From a virus, in the IMG/VR virus record IMGVR_UViG_3300036851_000121, positions 1 to 38,368 of that record: 38,368 nt of DNA. One strand, 5' to 3'. How positions within the stretch are numbered: position 1 is the first letter of the stretch; every line of letters begins with the position of its first letter. The position numbers and the translations under genes are program-made. The notes below the pieces were generated by a model. The model did not search any database. It was not told the origin of the DNA and saw only the letters and a program-made list of their open reading frames with translations. This document shows, piece by piece, positions 3 to 38,368 of this stretch.

Positions 3-674
3 GTACTCTATTTCGAAGGCGAGCGCGGTCACAGTTTTCGCATTCTCCGGGCGGTGAAAAACCGTTTCGGCTCGACCAACGAAATCGGCGTTTTCGAAAT
101 GAAGGAAGCGGGACTGAAAGAAGTCAGCAACCCGTCGGAAATTTTTCTCATGGAGCGGCCGCTCAAGGTTCCCGGCTCCGCCGTCGTCTGCAGCATGGAA
201 GGGACGCGGCCGATCTTGGTGGAACTGCAGGCTCTGGTTAGCCGATCATTCCTTGCCGTGCCGCGCCGAACCACGATTGGCGTCGATCATAACCGCGTCG
301 CGCTGCTGGTCGCGGTCTTGGAAAAAAAGATGGGCGCGAAGCTCTTTGACCAAGATATTTTCGTCAACGTCGCGGGCGGCGTTACCATCGACGAACCGGC
401 TGTGGATCTCGGAGTCGTCGCCACAATCGCCTCGAGCAGTCGAGATTGCGCGCTCGATCCTAAGACTGTCATTTTCGGTGAAGTGGGATTGGCTGGAGAA
501 GTCCGGGGCATCTCACAAGCAGAAGCTCGCGTCAAAGAGGCGGGGAAACTCGGCTTCGAGCGCTGCATCCTGCCCACCAGCAATGCCGCGCAATTAAAAC
601 ATATCAAGCACCCTCAGCTCGACGGCGTCGGTTCGCTTAGCGAGTGCTGGAAGCTACTTTTTAGGACTGAGTAA
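3..674 (+). CDS. radA: DNA repair protein RadA (Sms), C-terminal part, cut by window edge
   Basis: Host chromosomal gene entering from the left; 223 residues are visible and the start is outside the window. RadA is a RecA-like ATPase and branch-migration helicase acting in homologous recombination. The sequence shows the diagnostic KNRFG motif shortly after the start of the window (VKNRFGSTNEIGVFEM), followed by the Lon-protease-like C-terminal domain (VNVAGGVTIDEPAVDLGV, FGEVGLAGEVRGISQAEARV, GFERCILP). The frame runs from base 3 without interruption to the stop at 672-674. It is the only clearly bacterial housekeeping gene here, so it marks the left side as host DNA. Family assignment is secure; the host taxon cannot be read from it. 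Confidence 0.96.
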   Translation, partial: VLYFEGERGHSFRILRAVKNRFGSTNEIGVFEMKEAGLKEVSNPSEIFLMERPLKVPGSAVVCSMEGTRPILVELQALVSRSFLAVPRRTTIGVDHNRVALLVAVLEKKMGAKLFDQDIFVNVAGGVTIDEPAVDLGVVATIASSSRDCALDPKTVIFGEVGLAGEVRGISQAEARVKEAGKLGFERCILPTSNAAQLKHIKHPQLDGVGSLSECWKLLFRTE

Positions 675-792: not shown

Positions 793-839
793 GCCGGAGT
801 GGTGGAATGGCAGACGCGCCGGACTCAAAATAATCCGGC
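793..839 (+). pseudogene. tRNA-Leu(CAA) 5' half; 3' half missing or displaced
   Basis: Bases 793-823 match a bacterial tRNA-Leu exactly in layout: acceptor 5' strand GCCGGAG, D-arm GTGGAATGGCAGACGC, anticodon stem CCGGA (819-823) and TCCGG (834-838). The loop starts CTCAAAA, giving anticodon CAA, but it is 10 nt long instead of 7 because TAA (831-833) is added. No variable arm plus T-arm (GGTTCGANTCC) or acceptor 3' strand (CTCCGGC) follows within 300 bases. So this is either a tRNA gene disrupted at the anticodon stem by phage integration, or an intron-bearing or rearranged gene. It is not a complete tRNA as it stands. Confidence 0.6.
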
Positions 840-953
840 ATGATGCCTGCCGCAACGGCTTGTGTGAACCCGCCGATTTAATCGCCTATCTTGAGTCAGC
901 AACCCGGCATAGCCGGTACTTCCGCATACAGTCTAACCGCAAAACTCACACAA
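837..953 (+). other. Possible structured RNA across the host-phage junction
   Basis: This non-coding stretch is unusually rich in short helices. Seen directly: GGCATGATGCC (837-847), GCCGCAACGGC (849-859), CGATTTAATCG (874-884), CCGGCATAGCCGG (904-916), and a long-range stem TTGTGTGA (860-867) with TCACACAA (946-953) enclosing the last two. In addition TTGAGTC (891-897) is fully complementary to the tRNA anticodon loop GACTCAA (822-828). I could not fit it to a group I intron core or to tmRNA. It could be a novel RNA, a remnant intron, or chance in GC-rich DNA. Confidence 0.35.
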
Positions 954-1008
954 ACGACCGTGGTCGCTCGGCGCCTAAAGGCTGGCTAAATTGCGCGCCA
1001 CTCTACCA
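905..1008 (+). repeat. 104-bp direct repeat, left copy (candidate attL core)
   Basis: These 104 bases are identical to 38265-38368, the last bases of the window. Divergence on the left begins at 904 (c here, a in the other copy). On the right this copy continues into phage DNA, while the other stops at the window end, so the true repeat may be longer. It lies just after the tRNA-Leu fragment, as expected for a prophage attachment site, but an assembly overlap would look similar. Confidence 0.7.
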
Positions 1009-1118: not shown

Positions 1119-2015
1119 ATGGCAGTAGCAAACACGGACAAAGCGGCGCTTGACGAACTGATCGCCAAGGCCAACGAGACGGCCGCGGCTGGGGACAAAG
1201 AGACCGACGACGAAGGCGGCGAAGGAGATATCGACGAAGGCGGCGGCGGCGCGGATGACACGGCGGGAGAGAAAGACGGCGACGATAAAAAGAAGTCGGC
1301 AGCCGCCGCCGAAGACAAGAGCAAAGAAGCGCCGCCACGCAAAGATCCAACCGAAGGCATGACGGCGGAGCAAAAGGTCGACTACTGGCAGAAGCGCGCC
1401 AACCGCCACTATGCGGAGTATCAGAAGGAGCGCAGCAAGCGCCAAAGTTTGCAGCGCGGGCCGCTCACCGACGCCGGCAAGGGCTCGGCGCCGGCCGGGA
1501 AGGCGGCAGGCGAGGAAACGCCGAAGAGTCTCGACGAAGTGGAAAACCTCGGGCAGTTTTCCAAGTACGTCGTCGAGGAGGCTAAGCGCCAGATCAAGGA
1601 AGAGCTCACCGAGAAGGATCTCGACAGCCGAGTTACACGCACCGAAAGCGCGGCGCGCAAGAAACACGATGGCAAAGACGACTTTCCCGAATACGATGAA
1701 GTGGTCGACACCTACGTCTTACCGCTCATTCAAGAGAACCCAAACGTTTTTAAACTACTCCGCTTGATGGACGATCCGGGCGAGGCGGCGTACACCCTCG
1801 GAATGCTCCGCGGCTTTCCCAATTACATCGAGCAGATCAAGGGCAAGGGCCGCGAGGATCTCGCCAACAACATCAACGACGCCACGAAAAAGGCGGCGCT
1901 TGTGCGCGGGCGCAACGGCGGCCGGCAGACCGGCGCCAAGCTTACCGCAGCCGAGATCGACGCCATGAGTTTTGACGACTTCGAAAAAGAGATTGCAAAG
2001 ACTAAAGGGGAGTAG
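1119..2015 (+). CDS. Putative capsid scaffolding protein
   Basis: 298 residues, start supported by GGCGGAGGG about 10 bases upstream. The N-terminal third is low-complexity and very acidic (runs of D, E, G, K), the middle carries the scaffold-like heptad AEQKVDYWQKRANRHYAEYQ (near residue 85), and the rest is charged and helical, ending in a basic/mixed tail. Phage scaffolds chaperone capsid assembly and have this composition and this place, directly before the major capsid gene. Sequence identity within the family is low, so the call rests on composition, the heptad and gene order. In the circular phage it lies directly downstream of the portal gene and the small 38050 gene, the usual portal-scaffold-capsid order. 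Confidence 0.75.
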   Translation: MAVANTDKAALDELIAKANETAAAGDKETDDEGGEGDIDEGGGGADDTAGEKDGDDKKKSAAAAEDKSKEAPPRKDPTEGMTAEQKVDYWQKRANRHYAEYQKERSKRQSLQRGPLTDAGKGSAPAGKAAGEETPKSLDEVENLGQFSKYVVEEAKRQIKEELTEKDLDSRVTRTESAARKKHDGKDDFPEYDEVVDTYVLPLIQENPNVFKLLRLMDDPGEAAYTLGMLRGFPNYIEQIKGKGREDLANNINDATKKAALVRGRNGGRQTGAKLTAAEIDAMSFDDFEKEIAKTKGE

Positions 2016-2210: not shown

Positions 2211-3212
2211 ATGGTTATCTACACAGCAATCGACGACGACACGCAGACGTTTTATAACAAGACTCTGCTAGTCCGCGCTGTGCCGAATTTAATTCACGAT
2301 AAGTTCGGACAGCAAAAACCCATCCCCACCAACTCGACGCGGAAACAAACCTTCCGACGCTTCAATGCTTTCGCGATCAACACCACGCCGCTGATTGAAG
2401 GTATTACCCCGCTCGGAAAGGATCTCACCAAGACCGACGTCACTTGCACGCTCAGCCAGTTCGGCGACTTCACCACCGTGACCGACGTGGCGACTTGGGT
2501 ATCGCGCGACAAGGTACTCACCGAAGCGGCTGAAGTGTTAGGCGAACAGGCCGGCCAATCGGTCGACGCCGTCTGGCGCGACATTCTCGTCGCCGGGACC
2601 AACGTGTTTTGCGCCGAGGATAGCGTTGGCGCTACCGGCACAACCCGGCTCAACGTCGACGGACTGATCAACGCGGTTTTCTTGGACAAGTTACAGCGTC
2701 AACTCAAAAACCAGAACGCTAAGTTTCATCAAAAGATGATCAAGGCGTCGACGGGCATCGGGACCGTACCGATTCGGGCGGCCTACTTCGCGATCACGCA
2801 CCCCGACGTTGAGTTTACGCTGGAAAACGTGACCGGCTACAAGTCAACCACGGAGTACGGCAACAACGCGCCGACGATGGACCCTTACGAGATCGGCGCT
2901 TACAAGAACATGCGCTTTTGCTCGACCACCCAGGCGAAGATTTTTCTCGGCGCGGGCGGCGGGCCGACCGCGGGCAACAAGCAGACCGCGGGCAAGGACG
3001 ATGTTTACATCACGCTCGTGTTTGGCACGAACGCCTACGGCATCGTGCCGCTCAACGGCCATTCGCTCGAAAACATCGTGCAGCCGCTCGGCTCAGCCGG
3101 CAGCGCCGACCCGTTGAAACAGCGCGCGACGTCGGGATGGAAGGCCATGACGACCGCCGTCATTCTCAATGACGCTTTCATGGTTCGCGGAGAAACCGCA
3201 GCGGCGGCGTAA
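2211..3212 (+). CDS. Major capsid protein, N4-gp56 family
   Basis: 333 residues; ATG at 2211 preceded by AGGAGG ten bases upstream. The overall pattern matches the N4-gp56 capsid family: an N-terminal arm (FYNKTLLVRAVPNLIHDKFG), the KQTFRRF and GITPLGKDLTKTDVTCTLSQFGDFTTVTD stretch, and a C-terminal GTNAYGIVPL segment. These HK97-fold proteins build the icosahedral shell. Its position after the scaffold gene and before small head genes fits. Length is close to other members of the family. A 25-base piece of its beginning (2234-2258) occurs again, in the same reading frame, at 38241-38265. Its own promoter and stable leader hairpin suggest high expression. Confidence 0.9.
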   Translation: MVIYTAIDDDTQTFYNKTLLVRAVPNLIHDKFGQQKPIPTNSTRKQTFRRFNAFAINTTPLIEGITPLGKDLTKTDVTCTLSQFGDFTTVTDVATWVSRDKVLTEAAEVLGEQAGQSVDAVWRDILVAGTNVFCAEDSVGATGTTRLNVDGLINAVFLDKLQRQLKNQNAKFHQKMIKASTGIGTVPIRAAYFAITHPDVEFTLENVTGYKSTTEYGNNAPTMDPYEIGAYKNMRFCSTTQAKIFLGAGGGPTAGNKQTAGKDDVYITLVFGTNAYGIVPLNGHSLENIVQPLGSAGSADPLKQRATSGWKAMTTAVILNDAFMVRGETAAAA

Positions 3213-3775: not shown

Positions 3776-3814
3776 GCCGCGGGCGAGCTCAAGCGGGACG
3801 AGCTCGCCCGCGGC
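3776..3814 (+). other. 15-bp perfect hairpin before gene 3838
   Basis: Left arm GCCGCGGGCGAGCTC (3776-3790), 9-nt loop, perfectly complementary right arm (3800-3814). It ends nine bases before AGGAGG (3823-3828). With no T-run it is not a standard intrinsic terminator; it may stabilise or process the late mRNA. Confidence 0.6.
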
Positions 3815-3837
3815 CATCACTCAGGAGGGCTTTCTCT

Positions 3838-4443
3838 ATGGCGGAGAAAAACAAGAAACCGACGGCGCCGAGTAAAGCGCCGGCAACAACGGACAAGGCA
3901 CAACAGACACTTGACGCGGCGCTCGCCGCGCTCGAAGCGGTCGACCCGGAGCGCGCCACCGTGATCCGCAACTCGCTCGCCGAGAAAGAAAACGAAAAGA
4001 AGATCGAGGCGCTTTTGCAAAGCGAAGCGGACAAGCAGCAAGCGGAGAAACACTACTGGATTGAAATTAACCGGCTACCCGAAGACACCGAGGGCCATGT
4101 TTTCGTCGGCGCGGCCGGCGTGTCGTACCAGATCGAAAAGGGCGTGCGTGTACCTGTGCCGCGCTCTGTAGTGGAGATTCTCAATCACGCCGAAGTCTCG
4201 GGATACATCCCCGTCGTCGACTTCGCGACCAATCAGAAAGTGCTCAAGCCGGTCAAGTATAAGCGCTATCCGTTTAGCGTGTACGGTGAGGCGCCGCCGC
4301 CGGCCGTCGAGCGTTGGAAAAAGGTCGAGGAAGAGAAGGCGCGGGCGCGCGAGCTCCGCCAGCCGCAAGGGATGCCGGTTAGTTCAAGCGGTATGGATGA
4401 GCTCAGCTTAGAGGATCAACCGTCGGCCGACTTCCCCCAATGA
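3838..4443 (+). CDS. Conserved-type phage structural protein of unknown role
   Basis: 201 residues; AGGAGG ten bases before ATG. The N-terminal 75 residues are Ala/Lys/Glu-rich and helical. The middle has a short beta domain (WIEINRLPEDTEGHVFVGAA, VSYQIEKGVRVPVPRSVVEI) followed by LNHAEVSGYIPVVD, a pattern I associate with small proteins located between capsid and head-tail adaptor genes. The C-terminus is charged and Pro/Ser-rich. It overlaps the adaptor gene by four bases (ATGA), so the two are translationally coupled. A role in head completion is inferred from position only. Confidence 0.55.
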   Translation: MAEKNKKPTAPSKAPATTDKAQQTLDAALAALEAVDPERATVIRNSLAEKENEKKIEALLQSEADKQQAEKHYWIEINRLPEDTEGHVFVGAAGVSYQIEKGVRVPVPRSVVEILNHAEVSGYIPVVDFATNQKVLKPVKYKRYPFSVYGEAPPPAVERWKKVEEEKARARELRQPQGMPVSSSGMDELSLEDQPSADFPQ

Positions 4444-20605: not shown

Positions 20606-21247
20606 CTAACGTTCGTGCTTTGTCCAGCGTGCCGGTACTTCAAGCGGCGGATAGTGCTTCGGCGAGCGATCTTTCAAGTTGGCGATCGCTGACTCAAGTC
20701 GCTGCACCCGGCGGAAAATTGTGCCAAGGGTTTCCCACACGCGGTCATCGAGCCCGGTTCGCCAGAAGAGGAGCTCATCTTCGAGCGCCGTGAGGGCGTG
20801 CCGCAGTTTGTCATCTTTGTCACGCACGATGTTTTCCAGTTCTATAATGCGCGCCCGGAGCCGGTAAATTTCGAACTGATACTCATCGGGAATCTCAGGA
20901 CCATCCGGGACATCAAGAGCGGGCGCGTTGCTAACCGGGAAAACCTTTTGATTCATGTCGGGATTGAGTGCAACGCCGGTGCCGTCGCTATGTCCGATAA
21001 TGTCGCCGGCCGGCTCGTCTTTGACGTTAGCGCCGGAACGTTCAGGACTTGGCAACGTCTGATAAGATATAGTTGGGTCAACTGATTTCGCGGACTTAGC
21101 GAAAAACTTATGTAAACTTTCAGTTTTTTTGTCCACTTGCTTACCGGCCTTTAACTCTGCTCTTCGGAACAGCGCCAGAACTCCCCGCTTTAGCGATTTT
21201 CTTTCCCCGACCGAGAGCTCCCGCAATCGTTCGATCACGTAATTCAT
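20606..21247 (-). CDS. Coiled-coil protein co-transcribed with repressor
   Basis: 213 residues, overlapping the end of the repressor gene by 107 bases in another frame; GAGGGGGTG before ATG supports this start. The N-terminus is basic and helical (IERLRELSVGERKSLKRGVL), the centre is Pro/Gly-rich and probably flexible, and the C-terminal 90 residues form a coiled coil (YQFEIYRLRARIIELENIVR, LEDELLFWRTGLDD). No catalytic motif. Its place between repressor and membrane protein suggests a lysogenic function, perhaps partner or sensor of the membrane protein. Confidence 0.5.
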   Translation of the reverse strand: MNYVIERLRELSVGERKSLKRGVLALFRRAELKAGKQVDKKTESLHKFFAKSAKSVDPTISYQTLPSPERSGANVKDEPAGDIIGHSDGTGVALNPDMNQKVFPVSNAPALDVPDGPEIPDEYQFEIYRLRARIIELENIVRDKDDKLRHALTALEDELLFWRTGLDDRVWETLGTIFRRVQRLESAIANLKDRSPKHYPPLEVPARWTKHER

Positions 21248-21725
21248 AAGTGAGCACCCCCTCGGGCGTGAGAGGGTTCAACTTTCGTGCCTTGCTATCG
21301 GTCGCGAATTCGTCGGCCAGTTTTCGCAAGACACGGACTTGCCTGTCCATTCGTTCGCCCGTTTGCTCCACCGCGGCGGGAAGCTCTTCGATCCAGAAGT
21401 GACGAAAATCGGCAATCTGTTTGTCGAATATGTCGGCGACGGCGCCGGCCGCGTTTTGCCGGCCGGTCAAGATCCAGTCAACCGTCGTGCGGCCGAGCTC
21501 GGCAATCTGTAACAGCACATGCGCCTCGGGAATGTTGCGCGTCTCGTAGTTTTTCACCGCGCTTTGAGTGAGCGGCCTTCCGCTATCGGGATCGGCCAGC
21601 ACGGCGCCGAGCGCCTCTTGAGTTAGGCCGGCGCGCTCGCGGATCGCACGAATGCGCGCCGCTACCTCGGGAAGCATTTCCGCCTTCGGTTTCAATTCAG
21701 CACCACCGCTTGACAATGGTTTCAA
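21141..21725 (-). CDS. Xre-family (CI-like) repressor without protease domain
   Basis: 194 residues on the minus strand. The helix-turn-helix lies near residues 18-75: LPEVAARIRAIRERAGLTQE, PLTQSAVKNYETRNIPEAHV, then LLQIAELGRTTVDWIL. The C-terminal part is helical, with no S24 LexA-type Ser-Lys dyad, so induction would not be by autocleavage. TTG at 21725 is the longest start, but an ATG at 21677-21675 giving MLPEVAAR is plausible. It diverges from the Cro-like gene at 21791, the usual layout of a lysis-lysogeny switch. Confidence 0.75.
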   Translation of the reverse strand: MKPLSSGGAELKPKAEMLPEVAARIRAIRERAGLTQEALGAVLADPDSGRPLTQSAVKNYETRNIPEAHVLLQIAELGRTTVDWILTGRQNAAGAVADIFDKQIADFRHFWIEELPAAVEQTGERMDRQVRVLRKLADEFATDSKARKLNPLTPEGVLTYELRDRTIAGALGRGKKIAKAGSSGAVPKSRVKGR

Positions 21726-24341: not shown

Positions 24342-24554
24342 GTGAGACGCGACCCCATCCAACCGAAGAAGGGCGGCGGCGGCCATGAGCATACTTGCCG
24401 GCGTTGCCATACGCCGCGCGCTTGCTTCAAGGAAAAGTGCAGCGAACCGCAGACAACGCTTTGTCACAAATGTTTAACCCGGCAATTCCCCGAAGTGAAA
24501 ATCTACCGAAAAGTTACGGAGGTAAAAGAAACATGGACGCCCTGGAAAACCTAA
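24342..24554 (+). CDS. Small zinc-finger protein
   Basis: 70 residues from GTG 24342 (CAGGGAG upstream). CRRCHTPRACFKEKC followed by LCHKCLTRQF gives a zinc-binding pattern. Its last ten codons overlap the start of the nuclease gene in another frame; the peptide VKETWTPW from this overlap recurs inside the nuclease, because the underlying DNA is duplicated there. Confidence 0.5.
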   Translation: MRRDPIQPKKGGGGHEHTCRRCHTPRACFKEKCSEPQTTLCHKCLTRQFPEVKIYRKVTEVKETWTPWKT

Positions 24555-24742
24555 GCGCCGCTTTGGATATGACCGAGAAGGCGCTCGACTCAAGCAAGCG
24601 CACCGACCCCGAGCTCGCCGACAAACTCAAGCGGCGCGCCGTAAAAGAAACATGGACGCCCTGGAACATGGACGCCCTGGAAAACCTAAGCGCCGCTTTG
24701 GATATGACCGAGAAGGCGCGCGACTCAAGCAAGCGCACCGAC
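24531..24742 (+). repeat. In-frame tandem duplication, period 135 bp
   Basis: 24531-24607 and 24666-24742 are 77-bp copies with a single mismatch (24585 t, 24720 g). Between them lie a copy of the nuclease 3' region (24607-24640 resembling 25470-25500, one mismatch) and a copy of the gene's own start region (24641-24665 equals 24522-24546). Confidence 0.85.
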
Positions 24743-34666: not shown

Positions 34667-34972
34667 ATGATGGAAGAAACAAAGCTTTGTTTGCGCGGCG
34701 AAATGGCAAAGCCGTTTCTCAAGTACAAGATCGGCGACAAGATCAAGCTTACCGTCGAGGCCGTGCTTACGAGCGCCGGCCTTGAGCCGGACTATTCAGC
34801 CGAGCCGGTTGGCAAGGGCGAAGATAAAAAGACGCCGAAGCGGCCGGCGTGCGAATTTGTTATCGCCGCAATCAACGGCAAGGGACAGAAGTCCTACGAC
34901 GAGATGGACGCGGGCGAGATGGAGAGCGAGATCCACAAAGTCAAGAACTCGGACGAACAAGAGAGCGAATGA
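34667..34972 (+). CDS. Small phage protein of unknown function
   Basis: 101 residues from ATG 34667, chosen for GGGGAGGGG just upstream; ATG 34634 is an alternative. Beta-rich centre (KYKIGDKIKLTVEAVLTSAG) and a polar C-terminus (DEMDAGEMESEIHKVKNSDE). Stop overlaps the PP-loop gene by four bases. Confidence 0.45.
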   Translation: MMEETKLCLRGEMAKPFLKYKIGDKIKLTVEAVLTSAGLEPDYSAEPVGKGEDKKTPKRPACEFVIAAINGKGQKSYDEMDAGEMESEIHKVKNSDEQESE

Positions 34973-38009: not shown

Positions 38010-38036
38010 TTTGGGACCTATATCGTTAACTCCCGT
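38010..38036 (-). promoter_or_regulatory. 27-bp dyad site, copy 2, inverted
   Basis: Reverse complement of 1067-1093 with two mismatches (18 identical bases, two changes, seven identical). It lies between portal stop and the ribosome binding site of the 38050 gene. On the circular map the two copies face each other across the repeat. Confidence 0.6.
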
Positions 38037-38049
38037 AGGAGGTTTGAGA

Positions 38050-38349
38050 GTGAATAAAAAAGAGAGGCTAGAAGTTGCAAGAGCACTTAGGGGAAAGTTC
38101 GTTCGCTTTCACGATGATAGCAAGGTGAGTCGGGGTTATCTCGTCACGGGCGTTGATAAAAATGGAATGATTGAGCTTGACGGTTGGGCCGGGCTGTTTG
38201 ATCCGTGTCTATTCGAACGTGTGGATCATCCGCATACGGCCGACGACACGCAGACGTTTTATAACGGCATAGCCGGTACTTCCGCATACAGTCTAACCGC
38301 AAAACTCACACAAACGACCGTGGTCGCTCGGCGCCTAAAGGCTGGCTAA
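38050..38349 (+). CDS. Small phage protein, probably chimeric at its C-terminus
   Basis: 99 residues as written, from GTG 38050 (TAGGAGG eight bases upstream). The first 63 residues look natural: basic helix (NKKERLEVARALRGKFVRFH), then beta strands (GYLVTGVDKNGMIELDGWAG) and LFDPCLFERVDHPH. After that, residues DDTQTFYN are identical in DNA and frame to the beginning of the capsid protein, and the final 28 residues are translation of the 104-bp repeat. The real C-terminus is therefore uncertain. Function unknown; position between portal and scaffold is typical for a small morphogenesis gene. Confidence 0.4.
   Translation: MNKKERLEVARALRGKFVRFHDDSKVSRGYLVTGVDKNGMIELDGWAGLFDPCLFERVDHPHTADDTQTFYNGIAGTSAYSLTAKLTQTTVVARRLKAG
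38241..38265 (+). repeat. 25-bp copy of the capsid gene start
   Basis: Identical to 2234-2258 in the major capsid gene, and in the same reading frame. It abuts the right 104-bp repeat, sharing its last base (c 38265). Confidence 0.85.
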
Positions 38350-38368
38350 ATTGCGCGCCACTCTACCA
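38265..38368 (+). repeat. 104-bp direct repeat, right copy (candidate attR/attP core or assembly overlap)
   Basis: Identical to 905-1008 and ending exactly at the window edge. Together with the 25-bp copy before it, the last 128 bases contain no sequence that is unique in this window. Confidence 0.7.

Follow-up and report, generated by a model that had tools for sequence, protein, structure and literature searches.

Several kinds of integration into tRNA genes have been described. In the Islander collection, a displaced 5′ fragment is found in 159 of 3,919 islands, and 2,083 islands occupy anticodon sites (PMC4383910). In archaea, pTN3-like integrases target tRNA genes through their 5′ half, and similar bacterial cases have been described as rare (PMC8371274). 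In tRNA-dependent lysogeny, as in phage Fionnbharth, the tRNA is not rebuilt and a phage tRNA compensates for its loss (PMC10865867).

The locus described here lies near the left end of a 38,368-nucleotide stretch of viral DNA (IMG/VR record IMGVR_UViG_3300036851_000121), which was analyzed as a whole and is referred to as the window. Positions 793–831, together with the next ~130 bp, very probably constitute the attL of a temperate phage whose tyrosine integrase used the anticodon loop of the radA-linked tRNA-Leu(CAA) gene as its target, with a 5′ half carried on attP and the tRNA regenerated at attR. The finding belongs with the Islander-type islands that displace a 5′ fragment, a known but minority arrangement. 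It shares with them the anticodon-loop crossover and the displaced 5′ half, and probably also the tyrosine integrase and the recovery of that half at the opposite end, but it concerns a phage with an N4-gp56-type capsid protein and a Binatia-like host, and the window shows the displaced end only. As in pTN3-like systems, attP would carry the 5′ half, and the rebuilt tRNA would lie behind the integrase without a promoter of its own. The integrase genes of the archaeal elements can be split by integration, whereas the integrase gene here would be intact, reside upstream of attP, and be bacterial. Fionnbharth-type phages likewise combine a tyrosine integrase, an attB overlapping a tRNA, and paired arm sites around the core, but their shared segment is only ~10 bp and they provide an entire tRNA gene, whereas a 39-nt half would be carried here and no phage tRNA was found.

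Table 1. Features of the window that bear on the junction and on the phage.
Feature	Position	Strand	Remark
Host radA (sms), C-terminal part	3..674	+	TIGR00416 match; 88–90% amino acid identity to genomes of a single class
Probable native promoter of the tRNA gene, TTGAAT-17-TATCAA	752..785	+	Upstream-region comparison; GTTATCAATATTA block
Orphan 5′ half of host tRNA-Leu(CAA), forming the left side of attL	793..831	+	Stops within the anticodon loop (CTCAAAAT)
Phage right arm (P′) of attL	832..960	+	Not in host relatives; in register with L228 attP and G136 attL
TTGAGTC, complement of the anticodon loop	891..897	+	Chance
Probable integrase arm-type site CATACAGTCTAACCGCAAAACTCACACA	925..952	+	Exact 28-nt match to L228 attP
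First phage gene, probable scaffold protein between portal and capsid genes	1119..2015	+	~41% to equivalent gene
Major capsid protein (N4-gp56 family)	2211..3212	+
HTH repressor	21141..21725	-	Would fit a temperate phage
Portal protein, last large phage gene	36115..38004	+	Integrase and attR expected beyond contig end
Exact repeat of 905–1008 at contig end	38265..38368	+	103 nt plus one possibly chance base

The half tRNA and its host locus

The orphan half reads GCCGGAGTGGTGGAATGGCAGACGCGCCGGACTCAAAAT, followed by AATCCGGC, and its 39 nt are identical to the start of the intact tRNA-Leu(CAA) genes of relatives. ARAGORN calls no tRNA gene in the window, Rfam gives no match there at the gathering threshold and none in region 600–1400 even at E ≤ 10, and the + strand of the window carries no T-arm, 3′ acceptor sequence, or 3′ exon after the half tRNA. 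The original prediction of an intact tRNA-Leu 5′ half without T-arm or acceptor strand is thereby borne out. The prediction also placed the interruption after the anticodon stem; the tRNA is indeed interrupted, but the break falls within the anticodon loop, after 831, because identity with the tRNA of relatives runs through all 39 nt. The 10-nt anticodon loop can be seen as claimed, but it is only apparent, since the left stem strand is host DNA, while the right strand (TCCGG, 834–838) is phage DNA that resembles a stem strand.

The host relatives come from a set of 148 genomes, all in the class to which a Candidatus Binatia MAG belongs, and the RadA of the window is 88–90% identical to that of relatives in this class, Binatia. 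Integration, it had been proposed, would be supported by an uninterrupted tRNA-Leu behind radA in related genomes, and such a gene, tRNA-Leu(CAA), directly follows radA in eight genomes with a RadA match (G125, G131, G132, G133, G134, G137, G143, and G147). The tRNA region of every aligned relative is homologous to the window across the 5′ half at the nucleotide level, and this homology stops at 831. Integration, one of the three explanations originally offered, is thus the right one, and its site is the anticodon loop. Upstream of the half tRNA, the GTTATCAATATTA block is largely kept in the relatives, and, judged from sequence comparison, the promoter-like element that it marks is probably the native tRNA promoter, which would stay on the orphan side. 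One genome, G128, whose radA and tRNA lie 5 kb apart, was dropped as a junction pair, as no orphan half is present. The phage itself was also sought in the Binatia genomes, which gave portal matches of 24–28% only. As a separate observation, contig L104 of G143 (2254–2414) holds an intact tRNA-Leu(CAA) directly followed by a 5′-truncated tandem copy.

A second integrated element with both junctions

G136, which is among the closest relatives by RadA, likewise has the orphan tRNA half behind radA, and the DNA beyond it is unrelated (L164, an attL). On another contig, L163, a tyrosine recombinase of 402 aa (PF00589) is encoded in the same direction as, and ~15 bp upstream of, a complete tRNA-Leu, and the host flank downstream of this tRNA corresponds to the post-tRNA flank of G137 (163-bp alignment, 90%). 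Given this layout of integrase, tRNA, and host flank, the tRNA gene was evidently regenerated beside the integrase, with a 5′ half that came with the element. The G136 genome is fragmented, and its two junctions are tied to each other through these flanks; the junctions also share arm-like sequences, CACACAAGCAGTTT and then ACACAG. G136 thus shows a complete tRNA rebuilt at the other end, whereas the window stops before attR.

Among the Binatia members of this integrase family that adjoin tRNAs, most are convergent and lie at the 3′ side, and the 5′-type arrangement is found at tRNA-Leu(CAA) in G136 and twice at tRNA-Arg(CCT). In the latter two cases (L220 and L226), same-family integrases are co-directional with and upstream of the tRNA, marking two further likely 5′-type integration sites. 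A tRNA-Leu(CAA) in L167 (G129:C93, 310–422) has its 5′ acceptor strand apparently replaced by the arm-like TTACACAGTTTCACAGTTTAGTGG, perhaps through imprecise regeneration.

The attP of another phage

A 46-kb phage contig, L228, is the sole IMG/VR match to a 30-nt piece of the half tRNA. It contains, in order, an integrase gene (product 71% identical to the G136 integrase), an arm with CACACA repeats, the exact 39-nt tRNA 5′ half without a 3′ half, and a right arm, the organization of an attP. The window shares its 28-nt arm site with this contig, which is also the single IMG/VR match to that 28-mer, and the site lies 93 nt past the core in both, whereas shuffled sequences reach matches of at most 13 nt. 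IMG/VR scans with a 41-nt tRNA half and with window-specific arm sequence returned nothing. An attP with the same 5′ half beside an integrase gene is therefore present in a phage that shares the arm site of the window, while the attP of the window's own phage is not seen.

Phage genes and the right end of the contig

The phage genes begin with a product ~41% identical to that of the gene between the portal and major capsid protein genes in L084/L085, and end with the portal gene (Table 1). No integrase with a PF00589 or PF00239 domain is encoded in the window, which is incomplete at its right end, and relatives found through portal and capsid have no tRNA half near their capsid genes. Several features of these genomes are recorded in their own right. 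A 27-bp inverted similarity (93%; 38010–38036 and 1067–1093) lies on both sides of the portal–scaffold gap, around GTTAAC. The Cas4-type exonuclease gene contains a 78-bp direct repeat (98.7%; 24530–24742), and a phosphoadenosine phosphosulfate reductase gene is borne by the phage at 34849–35820. In a related phage (L144, 3669–5345), the capsid gene is split by ~660 bp with a LAGLIDADG-like ORF (3807–4397), which suggests an intron with a homing endonuclease.

The right end of the window (38241–38368) is an odd mosaic, in which 25 bp identical to the capsid gene start (2234–2258) precede 104 bp of the P′ arm, exactly 905–1008. The repeat of 905–1008 is probably an assembly-graph k-mer overlap, judging from its form, but this reading covers only the second part of the mosaic and not the 25-bp capsid-start patch.

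Proposed mechanism and alternative explanations

In the proposed mechanism, the phage attP would carry its own tRNA 5′ half directly behind the integrase gene, and the tyrosine integrase would recombine it into the anticodon loop of the host tRNA-Leu(CAA) gene beside radA. The host 5′ half and its probable native promoter would be left stranded at attL, and at attR the half supplied by the phage would join the host 3′ half (CCGGTAGGGG...) to give a complete tRNA. Both attR and a matching integrase would be expected just past the right end of the window, beyond the portal gene, and transcription of the rebuilt tRNA would presumably come from within the prophage, as the conserved promoter-like block at 752–785 stays at attL. 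Directly seen are the empty site, attL in two genomes, attR with an integrase in one, and attP in another phage contig. For the phage of the window itself, we infer regeneration of the tRNA, since the window contains neither integrase nor right junction, and its mosaic right end cannot show the rebuilt gene. These absences, together with the mosaic, count against integration with regeneration, as does the position of the phage break between the portal and scaffold genes, unlike that of attP in L228.

An attR beyond the window also leaves room for tRNA-dependent lysogeny, in which short-core integration destroys the host tRNA-Leu and a phage-borne tRNA-Leu replaces it; the mechanism has been described (PMC10865867), and the orphan side alone would look the same. 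It is nevertheless improbable here, as neither the window, incomplete at its right end, nor the L228 phage contig holds a tRNA gene, the L228 attP includes all 39 nt of the 5′ half and not just a ~10-bp core, and a rebuilt tRNA is present in G136. About equally improbable is an assembly or library chimera, in which an artificial join at 905/906 would link the phage to host DNA stemming from a different integrated element. The contig end does repeat 905–1008 exactly, as a k-mer overlap would, and the left neighbors of the two copies differ, but the arm site at 925–952 lies to the right of 906 and still keeps its register with the core at 831, so that host DNA, core, and arm make up a single attL whose spacing is right across 905/906.

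Least credible, to the point of being negligible, is the idea that the half tRNA is part of a tRNA intron, or of an RNA that pairs with or titrates tRNA-Leu through TTGAGTC. This 7-mer is present as predicted, 60 nt downstream, and its complementarity to GACTCAA (822–828) is perfect over 7 nt. However, ~7% of random 200-nt sequences contain a 7-mer complementary to some part of the stem-loop, as do 6.7% of real stretches taken from the window, and TTGAGTC is absent at the equivalent place in the two other known junctions, the G136 attL (L164) and L228; the pairing is not above chance. The intron-like element guided by this pairing, as originally envisaged, fails further in that the window offers no 3′ exon, no recognizable group I or II intron structure, and no Rfam intron match, even at a loose threshold. 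The suggested mimicry or titration of tRNA-Leu finds no support either, the same arm sequences being present in the L228 attP and, more weakly, in the attL and attR of G136. Both readings are largely refuted already, and neither is needed to explain the half tRNA.

Biological implications

The junction ties an uncultured phage to a host lineage, the class Binatia, at single-base precision, and adds a documented attB/attP/attL/attR set for the minority 5′-half class of bacterial tRNA integration. In this class, the prophage itself must supply transcription of the rebuilt tRNA. As the host promoter remains with the orphan half, the tRNA-Leu(CAA) of the lysogen might, as a tentative proposal less likely to hold than to fail, be transcribed within the prophage as the trailing part of the integrase mRNA, so that loss or repression of the integrase region would starve the cell of its UUG-reading tRNA. 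If true, host translation would be tied to the state of the prophage.
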